55,284 nt of DNA from Alphaproteobacteria bacterium (GTDB lineage Bacteria > Pseudomonadota > Alphaproteobacteria > ATCC43930 > CGMCC-115725): NCBI GenBank assembly GCA_030041335.1, contig JASHOB010000070.1:1-55284 (forward strand). Direction: 5' to 3'. Numbering within the stretch: the first letter of the stretch is position 1; the number at the start of each line of letters is the position of its first letter. The notes below the pieces were generated by a model, which saw nothing but the letters and a program-made list of their open reading frames with translations, was not told the DNA's origin and ran no database searches. This document shows, piece by piece, positions 18,419 to 21,033 of this stretch. The translations under genes were made by a program, and so were the position numbers.

Positions 18419-18910
18419 ATGAACCGACTTCTATTGCTCGCGACTGCGGCGACCGTCGCCTTGACCGGAGCGGCCTTCGCGCAAACCAATGGCACCCCCG
18501 GCACTGCGCCAAAGCCGGCGGCAACTGCGACCGCTCCGGTGCCGACATCGCCGCCCGTCAGTCCTAGGGCTAAGGCCGCGCCCGCCCAGGCAACCATGGC
18601 CCAACCGGCGCAAAGCACGACCGTCAAGTCCGCGCCCGAGGCCACGACGGGAAAGAATACCGCCATGAGGCCGGTCAAGAGCGCGCGCACGGAACGGCGG
18701 CGCCGGCACGGCGCGATGAGGCCGACCATGGCGGCAGAACGCCTCGTCGACCGCGAGACCAGCGCCTTGAACGTGCTCGAAGCCAAGGGTTACGGCGGCA
18801 ACTACACTGATTTTCAACGCGACGGCAGCAATTATTCGGCCATGGTGACGCACAACGGCAAGCAGCAGAAAGTAATCATCGATCCGGATGCGGGCACCGT
18901 CACTCGCTGA
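18419..18910 (+). CDS. Secreted PepSY-like protein
   Basis: 163 residues from ATG 18419, chosen because GGAGAGGAACG sits just upstream and because the next 22 residues are a Sec signal peptide ending AFAQ. The middle (about 25-100) is low complexity, rich in Ala, Pro and Thr, and probably disordered. The last 60 residues (ALNVLEAKGYGGNYTDFQRD, then QQKVIIDPDAGTVTR) have the helix-strand-strand pattern of PepSY-like domains. Periplasmic location likely. Function unknown. Confidence 0.65.
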   Translation: MNRLLLLATAATVALTGAAFAQTNGTPGTAPKPAATATAPVPTSPPVSPRAKAAPAQATMAQPAQSTTVKSAPEATTGKNTAMRPVKSARTERRRRHGAMRPTMAAERLVDRETSALNVLEAKGYGGNYTDFQRDGSNYSAMVTHNGKQQKVIIDPDAGTVTR

Positions 18911-18939
18911 ACCATCTGGTGTTGGCGTCCGCACCGGCT

Positions 18940-18968
18940 TCGCGCCGCCACCCAGTGTGGCGGCGCGA
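18940..18968. terminator. Terminator-like hairpin between convergent units
   Basis: A perfect 12-bp stem (18940-18951 with 18957-18968, loop CCAGT) sits between the end of the PepSY-like gene and the 3' end of tRNA-Leu, which runs on the minus strand. It lacks a T-tract on both sides, so termination is only a positional inference. Confidence 0.4.
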
Positions 18969-19020
18969 GCCGCGACACCGGCGCCAATGCCGCAAGAATA
19001 CTTCAGCATATTCCCAAGGT

Positions 19021-19322
19021 TGGTGCCGGTGAAGGGACTCGAACCCCCACTCCCTTGCGGGAAACGGATTTTCGCACCACTTCGGCTTTCGCCGCCCCAA
19101 AGGTTCGTGGTCCGGACTGTCCCTTCACCGTGCCGGCCGAAACCGGTTTAGGTGCTGCCCGTCCAGTCTCTACGCCTTCCCGATTTCTCGGGCTTGGCTC
19201 GGGATTAGCAGCAGCCTGACTGTCAGCCTTCCCCGACTTTGGGCAGTTCTACTCCCGGCGTTTCCGCCGAGGCACTCAATTTGCTTTTGAGTCCGTCGCG
19301 TCTACCATTCCGCCACACCGGC
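19021..19322 (-). tRNA. tRNA-Leu(CAA) gene interrupted by a group I intron
   Basis: The minus strand from 19322 reads GCCGGTG for the 5' acceptor, pairing exactly with CACCGGC before A73 and an encoded CCA (19023-19021). The 5' exon covers 19322-19289 (34 nt, ending at C34); the 3' exon covers 19072-19021 (52 nt). Joined, they give an anticodon loop CTCAAAA with anticodon CAA, a five-base-pair stem ACGGA/TCCGT, a long class II variable arm and the T-loop TTCGAGT, i.e. a leucine tRNA. The gene begins 22 bp after the stop codon of the TPP enzyme gene on the same strand and may be cotranscribed with it. Confidence 0.95.
19073..19288 (-). ncRNA. Group I intron (IC3-like) in tRNA-Leu(CAA)
   Basis: 216 nt between the tRNA exons. 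It carries the conserved core: GAGCCAAGCC (complement at 19191-19200), AGAGACTGGACGG, and P7-region GACAGTCC. Pairings visible by eye are P1 (exon ACTC with intron GAGT), P3 (CTGCCC, complement 19241-19246, with GGGCAG, complement 19155-19160), P4 (TCGGG/CCCGA), P7 (GACTG/CAGTC) and P9 (ACCAC/GTGGT). It ends in G, as group I introns do. The core resembles the tRNA introns of cyanobacterial Leu(UAA) and Azoarcus Ile. No homing-endonuclease frame is inside. Because both junctions carry AAAA, the exact site is set by the terminal G. Confidence 0.92.
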
Positions 19323-19344
19323 ACGGGCCGCGTGGTTAGCACAT

Positions 19345-21033
19345 TCAGCGCGTGATCGCCACATTGAGAATTGCCGTCTTGCCGCCCGCGACGGCCGCGA
19401 GCGCTTCGGCCAGAGCTGCCGACAGCGCCTCCTGGTGTTCGACCTTGCGGCCGTACCCGCCGAACGGCTTCGCGAACTCGGCGTAGTCAGGACCGGCTAT
19501 GTCGACGCCATAGAACAAGTCTGCGTTGACCGAAACGCCCGCGGGATAGTGGTGAACATGGCCGTGCTTCATCGCCTGGTAGCGACCGTTGTTGAAGACA
19601 ACGGTCAGCAGCGGCAGCTCGTGTGCCTTGGCGGCGCCGAGCGCCTGGACGATCGGGTTGTAGAGGAAACCACCATCGCCGGTGACCAGCACCACCGGCC
19701 GGTGGCGCGCCGCGAGCTTGACTCCGAGCGCGGTGCCGAGTCCCTGGCCCAAACCACCGAAGATGCGAAAATAGCTCTGTGGCGCCGTGTAGTCGAGGTG
19801 TCGGCGCACGATCGGATGATGGGTTATGGTTTCGTCGACGATGATCGCGTCGGCGGGCAGCGCTTCGGCCAGCGCGGCGCACAGCGCGACCGGATCGATT
19901 GCGGCCGTCGCGCGCGCCGTCTCGACTTCGGCCCGCCGCGTCGCAAGATAAGTCTGGTGGGCACGGAGCCAGCGCTGGCGCCGGGCCGCATCGTCCGCTT
20001 TCGGCAGGGCGGCGGCCAACAGCGTCAACGACGCGGCGATATCGCCTTCAAGGTAATGATCGGCGTGCAGGTTTTGATAGACCATGTGGGTCTTGAGCGG
20101 ATTGTCGTGGATCGCGACGATGGCGCCTTTGGTCGGACGGCGGTGAGGCGGATACCAGGGCGCGCGTCCGCCGACGAGCAGCACGAGATCGCTCTCGCTC
20201 ACGGCGTCATATTCGCCGATGCCGAGCCAGAGCGGGTGGTTGGTCGGGAAATTGGCGAAGGAAGCATTGATGCCGCCGATGACCGGAATGATCCCCTGTT
20301 CGGCGAGGGCGACCAGCGCGGCAAAGGCGGCGGGGTCGCGCCCGGCGGTTTCGGCGACAATGACCGGATTGCGCGCTTGGCGCAGGAGGCGGGCGATCTT
20401 TGCGATCTCGTCGGCATGGGGCTGTCGCCGAGGTGCCGCCGGCACGTGCCGGGCGTCAGGCGCCGGCGTCCAGCGGTGCAGCATGTGCTCGAGCGGCACA
20501 TTGAGATAGACCGGTCCCAAAGGCGGGCGGGCCGCCAGCTCCCCGGCGCGGACGATGCTCTCATGCAAGGTGAACGGGCTGGCGACCGCACGCGCAAACT
20601 TAACCATGGGCTCGACCAGCCGCTCCGGCCCGCCGACGCTTAACCCGCCATACCATTGCGGCTCAATGGCGAGATCGGGATCTTCGCCGAGACTGACCGA
20701 TTCGCCCGACAACACCACCATCGGCACTTCGCCCTGGAAGGCGCTCAGGATCCCCATCGCGCCATGAAGCAGGCCGACCCCGGCATGAAGCAGTACGGCC
20801 TGTGGCCGTCCTGTCACCAGCGTGTATCCCGACGCCATATTGACAGCGAGATTCTCGTGCCAAGTCTCTACGAAGCACGGCCCCCGCGTGCCGCTCACTT
20901 TCTGCCGCGCCAGCGCCTCCCAGACCGGACCCCACTCCGAGCCGGGCGACGACACGATATAGTCCATGTCGAGGCGACGGAATGCTTCCACGACCGCTTC
21001 GCCGCCGTCCAGTTCGTTGCTCTGATCAGCCAT
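19345..21033 (-). CDS. Thiamine pyrophosphate-dependent enzyme, acetolactate synthase-like
   Basis: 562 residues with the three-domain build of the POX/ALS family. The N-terminal Pyr domain has Glu60 in ETWHENLA, at the cofactor-activating position. The middle domain has the ARNPVIVAE stretch; the C-terminal PP domain contains GDGGFLYNPI (from 452) and NNGRYQAM, the GDG(X)nNN TPP-Mg motif. Acetolactate synthase, oxalyl-CoA decarboxylase and benzoylformate decarboxylase relatives share this, so the 2-keto-acid substrate is undetermined. A strong AGGAGG precedes the ATG. There is no IlvN-type regulatory subunit or other pathway gene adjacent; tRNA-Leu lies 22 bp downstream. Confidence 0.88.
   Translation of the reverse strand: MADQSNELDGGEAVVEAFRRLDMDYIVSSPGSEWGPVWEALARQKVSGTRGPCFVETWHENLAVNMASGYTLVTGRPQAVLLHAGVGLLHGAMGILSAFQGEVPMVVLSGESVSLGEDPDLAIEPQWYGGLSVGGPERLVEPMVKFARAVASPFTLHESIVRAGELAARPPLGPVYLNVPLEHMLHRWTPAPDARHVPAAPRRQPHADEIAKIARLLRQARNPVIVAETAGRDPAAFAALVALAEQGIIPVIGGINASFANFPTNHPLWLGIGEYDAVSESDLVLLVGGRAPWYPPHRRPTKGAIVAIHDNPLKTHMVYQNLHADHYLEGDIAASLTLLAAALPKADDAARRQRWLRAHQTYLATRRAEVETARATAAIDPVALCAALAEALPADAIIVDETITHHPIVRRHLDYTAPQSYFRIFGGLGQGLGTALGVKLAARHRPVVLVTGDGGFLYNPIVQALGAAKAHELPLLTVVFNNGRYQAMKHGHVHHYPAGVSVNADLFYGVDIAGPDYAEFAKPFGGYGRKVEHQEALSAALAEALAAVAGGKTAILNVAITR

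Follow-up and report, generated by a model that had tools for sequence, protein, structure and literature searches.

A group I intron in an alphaproteobacterial tRNA-Leu(CAA) gene with a predicted C-G pair at the 5′ splice site

In excerpts of the published literature, bacterial group I introns are described in the Leu(UAA) and fMet tRNA genes of cyanobacteria (PMC4033280) and in the Arg(CCU) tRNA genes of alphaproteobacteria, where splicing has been shown in Bartonella (PMC7717549), and introns in fMet or Ile2 genes lie behind 36 genomes with a missing tRNA gene (PMC8450103). Excerpts of this literature also state that the 5′ exon of a group I intron ends in U and that this base forms a U-G pair (PMC11835236, PMC6155759), and that a 2025 database discarded 16,427 candidate introns because they lacked the initial U (PMC11835236). 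Natural C-G introns with intact cores would suggest that such filters on U may hide real introns. Nothing on a group I intron in Leu(CAA), or on a natural C at the 5′ splice site, was found in the open-licence PMC literature, and exceptions may be in print. In older work on Tetrahymena, a C-G pair at the splice site reportedly weakened the first step, and a Coxiella intron is said to carry an unusual terminal A.

The window, which is the whole stretch of 55,284 nucleotides analysed here (contig JASHOB010000070.1 of assembly GCA_030041335.1), carries on the minus strand at 19021-19322 a class II tRNA-Leu(CAA) gene with an encoded CCA, the anticodon loop of which is interrupted by 216 nt. An earlier note made from the letters alone had recognised in this segment a group I intron of 216 nt within a tRNA-Leu(CAA) gene, and its coordinates and strand are upheld by ARAGORN, by a relaxed search with the Rfam model RF00028, and by covariation. 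With introns allowed, as the note had advised for the tRNA search, ARAGORN calls tRNA-Leu(caa) of 86 bases with a 216-nt intron at 34/35, and the joined exons alone give an intact 86-nt Leu(CAA) tRNA. The 5′ exon (19289-19322, minus strand, 34 nt) ends in GGACTC, its last base being C34, and is identical in the intronless Leu(CAA) gene of a genome of the same genus (G003). The intron (19073-19288, minus strand, 216 nt), supported by RF00028, ARAGORN, covariation, and the covariance model R1, has its terminal G at 19073, and the 3′ exon (19021-19072, minus strand, 52 nt), read from the sequence and by ARAGORN, starts with AAAATCC, encodes the CCA, and is 98% identical to that of G003.

This gene is easily passed over by default searches. 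A tRNA search without introns called no tRNA in the window, and Rfam at the gathering score gave no match there. When 18950-19400 was searched with RF00028 (Intron_gpI) at a relaxed threshold, the full model matched 19096-19298 on the minus strand with 28.9 bits and an E-value of 1.5e-5, a score seen only at that setting because the gathering score is 50 bits. The note had proposed Rfam as a check and the absence of a hit as a refutation; the check is thus negative at the gathering score and positive when relaxed, and the refuting test is too strict here, as it would be satisfied at the default threshold. The tRNA tool and default Rfam thus both miss the sole gene found here for the tRNA cognate to the UUG codon.

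Upstream of the tRNA lies a gene for a thiamine pyrophosphate (TPP) enzyme (19345-21033, minus strand), and the same stretch adjoins the empty site in G003. Its stop is separated from the tRNA by just 22 bases (19323-19344), and a scan of 18850-19700 for promoters and terminators returned 0 and 0. Given this short gap and the lack of a promoter-like site in 18850-19700, the split tRNA may be co-transcribed with the TPP enzyme gene.

The insert has the layout of a small group I intron, with all of its elements on the minus strand. The internal guide sequence GAGT (19274-19277) pairs with the exon ACTC to form P1, as read from the P1 table, the fold, and the P10 check, and P10 could form between the two T that immediately precede it and the two A with which the 3′ exon opens. 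P2 (19252-19271), placed by sequence and minimum free energy fold, and P9 (19077-19110), placed by covariation, each carry a GAAA tetraloop. P3 is formed by CTGCCC (19241-19246) and GGGCAG (19155-19160), with four of its six pairs changing on both sides and all cells paired. Alignment and covariation place P4, J4/5, P5, and J5/4 at 19199-19236, where a G-U pair (19228 with 19207) closes P5, P6 and P6a at 19174-19198, and the guanosine-binding helix P7 between GACTG (19164-19168) and CAGTC (19115-19119), while P8 (19126-19154) follows from covariation. The intron therefore has the conserved P3-P9 core with its P3/P7 pseudoknot, a P1 between the 5′ exon and the internal guide, and a terminal G at the 3′ splice site. 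The small periphery, the GAAA loops of P2 and P9, and the anticodon-loop host are also present, features said to belong to group IC3. No homing endonuclease gene lies inside the intron, as the earlier note had remarked: the insert is 216 nt long, and the sole overlapping open reading frame of at least 80 codons (18888-19151) is antisense and runs out of the intron.

Support for this core comes from an alignment of the window core with ten homologues, in which 98.4% of 385 cells were paired and 16 of 35 pairs had changed on both sides, compared with a shuffled mean of 6.5. None of 500 shuffles was as high on any of the five measures. When partners were slid, 28-45% of cells paired, a control in which the structure is favoured by having been drawn by hand on the window. 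The intron RNA folded alone was more stable than 100 shuffles (z -3.41), and R1 scored 168.7 bits at 19075-19250, the window being one of the 11 sequences in the model. The core helices named in the earlier note are thus backed by covariation, and the encoded CCA, the terminal G, and the GAAA loops that it listed are visible in the sequence. Chance resemblance to a group I intron is ruled out by the covariation. What departs from the family is the 5′ splice site, where the U at the exon end and the U-G pair are replaced by C and C-G. Since the core, the guide, the terminal G, and the nearest relatives are all of the group I family, the predicted C-G intron is treated here as a variant of that family and not excluded from it.

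Related introns were sought with R1 in genome samples that overlap. At E-values up to 0.001, matches, a few of them weak, occurred in 5 of 43 genomes of the window's order and 52 of 385 of its class, and at the same limit in 28 of 299 genomes of the phylum; centred on another genome of the phylum (G425), the search matched 23 of 194 genomes of its order and 60 of 321 of its class. The suggestion of the earlier note that such an intron is uncommon in an alphaproteobacterium was half right overall: matches are frequent in the class, and six further Leu(CAA) introns were found. For the tree, 117 cores were kept, and a host was assigned to 116 of them, L188 being without one. These hosts were Leu(UAA) (51), Arg(CCU) (20), Lys(UUU) (10), Leu(CAA) (9), Arg(UCU) (7), Met/Ile(CAU) (6), Thr(GGU) (5), Lys(CUU) (4), Thr(CGU) (2), Ser(UGA) (1), and a UGU tRNA that is probably Thr (1). 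On these survey frequencies and this range of hosts, tRNA group I introns are ordinary as a kind in this phylum.

The count of 116 was made after the omission of loci that were weak, were truncated at contig ends, had no tRNA that could be recognised, or were simply not taken forward (L119, L121, L123, L125, L127-L131, L153, L154, L166-L174, L177, L178, L197, L216, and L219-L233); some of these were later given a host, and U preceded the cut where the tRNA fit was good. It also excludes the unscored L175, L176, and L179-L184 and further weak matches, and it predates L255. The scan pattern applied to named genomes was narrow, matching neither L145 nor L255 and reaching L132 only through an upstream AAGTG.

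Several further observations concern the related introns themselves. Introns in Lys(UUU), Lys(CUU), Thr(GGU), Thr(CGU), Arg(UCU), and Ser(UGA) hosts were inserted after base 33, 34, 35, or 36, and Lys, Thr, Arg(UCU), and Ser(UGA) hosts are not met in the excerpts of the literature cited here. G425 carries two tRNA group I introns, L145 in Leu(CAA) after C34 and L155 in a CAU tRNA after U33. Eight Leu(UAA) introns of about 690-740 nt (L166, L167, L168, L169, L226, L227, L228, and L127) have two core matches hundreds of nucleotides apart, and each has an open frame of at least 157 codons opposite the tRNA strand. The frame of L127 matches HNH endonucleases in PHROGs (E 2.5e-47), and that of L169 has no Pfam match at 0.001. 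In G1311, a 221-nt intron-like insert (L256) lies in a tRNA to which ARAGORN gives a stop anticodon, which is probably a border error.

The earlier note overlooked the most unusual feature of the locus, namely that its 5′ splice site has a C. On the rule that the intron ends in G, the borders fall at 19289|19288 and 19073|19072, and C34 (19289, minus strand) would form a C-G pair with the guide G at 19277, as read from the sequence and the P1 table. Among the 116 classified tRNA introns, the last base of the 5′ exon is U in 113 and C in 3, with borders sought only where a G precedes the 3′ cut and the loop contains U33, and with the exon ends of 17 rows, all ending in U, set by hand from the known anticodon loop. 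The terminal G found in 116 of 116 is no independent test, as only 3′ cuts after G were considered. The guide partner was picked with a preference for G, under which one row (L191) still shows U-A; without that preference, 114 introns gave U-G 91, U-U 11, U-A 6, C-G 3, and U-C 3. The three C cases are the window, L132 from a gammaproteobacterial metagenome-assembled genome (MAG), and L145 from G425, which is of the same phylum and another class, and all three are in Leu(CAA) at 34/35. A fourth C34 intron (L255), found after the count, is in a second species of the genus of G425, and in a third species of the genus the Leu(CAA) gene (L259) lacks an intron. The other six Leu(CAA) introns (L010, L011, L111, L113, L124, and L126) are cut after U33 with a U-G pair, and all are in genomes of the window's class, two of them in the window's family.

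The C-G pair would be an artefact of border assignment if the cut lay after another base, namely U33, A35, or beyond. Because up to four A occur at both borders of the window intron, the product by itself does not determine the cut, and P1 can be extended through A-U pairs, so P1 alone is compatible with a cut at A35 or A36. A cut after U33 would, however, require a 3′ exon starting with C, which is present in all six U33 introns and absent in the window, and in none of the three C-G introns would a cut at A35 or further on keep the terminal G. The cut register of these introns agrees with that of their Leu(UAA) relatives. In the window, L145, and L132, the 3′ exon AAAATCC is preceded by G instead of C, and C34 therefore belongs to the 5′ exon; no cut other than that after C34 gives a 7-nt loop together with a terminal G. 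In these three introns, as in 84 of the 116, the guide G lies 27 nt before the core, and the C-G introns can form P10 pairs. A misplaced border is thus regarded as very unlikely, and the cut after C34 is used in what follows.

The host gene is a genuine Leu(CAA) gene, as judged from sequence identity. It is class II, it has a CAA anticodon after splicing, and it resembles intronless Leu(CAA) genes: its spliced exons are identical at 85 of 86 positions to the intronless gene of G003, as opposed to 65 of 86 for the Leu(UAA) gene of its own genome, which excludes a Leu(UAA) gene mutated to a CAA anticodon. G003, which is 61% complete, offers an empty orthologous site, with an upstream flank that matches over 1.5 kb at 77%, and a second genome of the genus (G001) also has an intronless Leu(CAA) gene. 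The simplest reading is that the intron was gained in the window's lineage, with loss in the other genomes as the alternative. In the window's own genome (G000, a 262-contig draft of 100% estimated completeness), no second Leu(CAA) gene was found. Its 38 matches to RF00005, 37 of them called as tRNAs, include intact Leu(UAG), Leu(UAA), Leu(CAG), and Leu(GAG) genes and none with CAA, and a DNA search with the whole gene found itself and one other place, the Leu(UAG) gene. An intact Leu(CAA) gene elsewhere, which according to the earlier note would refute its reading if this locus were also shown not to be transcribed, was accordingly absent from the tRNA calls and the DNA search of this genome. 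In G425, no other Leu(CAA) gene occurs among nine class II tRNAs taken from its 38 tRNA matches. Elsewhere in the window's own genome (L060, 806-1242, minus strand), ARAGORN with introns calls a Glu(UUC) gene with a 342-nt intron; this is probably a chance call, since an ordinary Glu(UUC) gene (L057) exists and R1 matches the genome once, at the window.

It could be argued that such a gene is dead or dying. An intron without a U-G pair, a pair that is described as required, would then splice poorly or not at all, and since Leu(UAA) tRNA could read UUG by wobble, and the genome's own Leu(UAA) gene is intact, an unspliced Leu(CAA) might be tolerated. The sequences argue against decay. L145 and L132 each form the full set of 35 core pairs that were checked, as the window does by construction, the pairs having been drawn on it. 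Between L145 and L132, 148 of 190 positions are identical and none of the 35 pairs has changed in spite of 42 differences; between the window and its nearest relative in the tree, the Leu(UAA) intron L077, 134 of 160 aligned positions are identical, two pairs differ on both sides, and no pair is lost. This pattern is consistent with purifying selection acting on the ribozyme since the splice site became C-G, provided that L145 and L132 descend from a common C-G ancestor. The near-identity of the exons to an intact gene, the recurrence of the C-G form in a gammaproteobacterial MAG and two species of another genus, and codon usage in ten genes of the window (UUG 52 of 326 leucine codons, UUA 1), by which the cognate tRNA looks useful, also speak against a dying gene, which is therefore considered unlikely. 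A further alternative holds that C34 is edited to U in the precursor, restoring the U-G pair and giving a UAA anticodon. Editing would explain the retained Leu(UAA) guide, and both CAA and UAA anticodons read leucine; C34-to-U editing of this sort is not known from these bacteria, and this alternative seems the most far-fetched of those considered.

The ancestry of the C-G introns was assessed with a maximum likelihood tree of the 117 cores, which has many open forks. The window intron pairs with L077, from another family of the class (support 94/91), and L145 and L132 group with five Leu(UAA) introns of genomes in the same phylum outside the window's class (97/90), while the U33-type Leu(CAA) introns lie on other branches. 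Topology tests reject the grouping of all nine Leu(CAA) introns in one clade (p-AU 0.0007). They also reject the monophyly of the three C-G introns when every column is used (p-AU 0.007), but no longer do so without the P5 columns (p-AU 0.09). The two C-G sets differ in their guides (GAGUGC vs. GAGCCC), and P7 differs between the window and L132. Two origins of the C-G form are thus favoured, not proven, with mixed support. As the three C-G introns fall in two places among Leu(UAA) introns, the tree suggests transfer between isoacceptors. L145 and L132 share the intron start AGACACAA, which suggests a common C-G ancestor for these two; the reading of L255, from the genus of L145, as AGACCTAA at the intron start counts against it.

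A second feature is common to the C-G introns. J4/5 is the part of the ribozyme that contacts the splice-site U-G pair, and the window, L145, and L132 have G and U at core positions 23/44, which form the P5 pair next to J4/5. In the remaining 114 cores, these positions hold G-U in 4, A-C in 65, and C-C in 37. The association of G-U with C-G (3 of 3 vs. 4 of 114) has a P of 1.3e-4 when kinship is ignored, for a column found by scanning all columns; with the two independent pairs available, a sign test gives p 0.5. The four U-G introns with G-U include L002, from the window's own family, and L194, beside the L145/L132 clade. Because there are two independent comparisons, the column came from scanning, and L002 belongs to the window's family, a G-U pair adapted to the C-G splice site is a lead only. 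That the C-G introns represent a natural, repeated re-tuning of splice-site recognition is a tentative and doubtful proposal.

Taken as a whole, the locus is probably explained by a Leu(UAA)-type group I intron that entered Leu(CAA) at the homologous site and splices in the ordinary way with a C-G splice pair. A small ribozyme of the Leu(UAA) 34/35 kind would have entered the Leu(CAA) gene of this lineage. The Leu(UAA) and Leu(CAA) anticodon loops differ only at base 34, and for this reason the guide GAGU could pair with ACUC as it does with ACUU, the splice-site pair becoming a Watson-Crick C-G instead of U-G. An external guanosine bound in P7 would then attack after C34, and the free C34 end would attack after the terminal G to yield an intact Leu(CAA) tRNA. 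We infer splicing in the cell, the direction of transfer, and the acceptance of C-G from sequence comparison. The C-G splice site may bend the U-G rule; if true, natural C-G introns with intact cores would mean that the rule is breakable, and they would offer a convenient system in which to test splice-site recognition by the ribozyme. They also illustrate a possible passage between isoacceptor tRNA genes that differ by one anticodon-loop base.

As a tRNA group I intron, the window intron is a member of a common kind, and the predicted C-G splice site is the new part. The closest described systems are the Leu(UAA) introns of cyanobacteria and plastids (PMC4033280, in excerpt), represented by 51 of the 116 introns here, which have the same core and terminal G and are inserted at 34/35 in 50 of 51. 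Those near the C-G introns carry the guide GAGU or GAGC and stand closest to them in the tree. Leu(UAA) introns have U34 with a U-G pair, whereas the window has C34, a C-G pair, and the CAA isoacceptor as host. The Arg(CCU) introns of alphaproteobacteria such as Agrobacterium and Bartonella (PMC7717549, in excerpt) belong to the same model family, but unlike the window intron they are inserted after U36, with a U-G pair and in another tRNA. Among the introns surveyed, L151 is a 212-nt intron in a CAU tRNA, inserted after base 36 and placed on a long branch of the tree. The Ile(CAU) intron of Azoarcus, said to be of group IC3, resembles the window intron in its small size and core layout and differs in its insertion after U36 and its U-G pair. 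The U33 introns share both the host tRNA, Leu(CAA), and the model family with the window, and differ from it in a cut after U33, a U-G pair, and their position on other branches.
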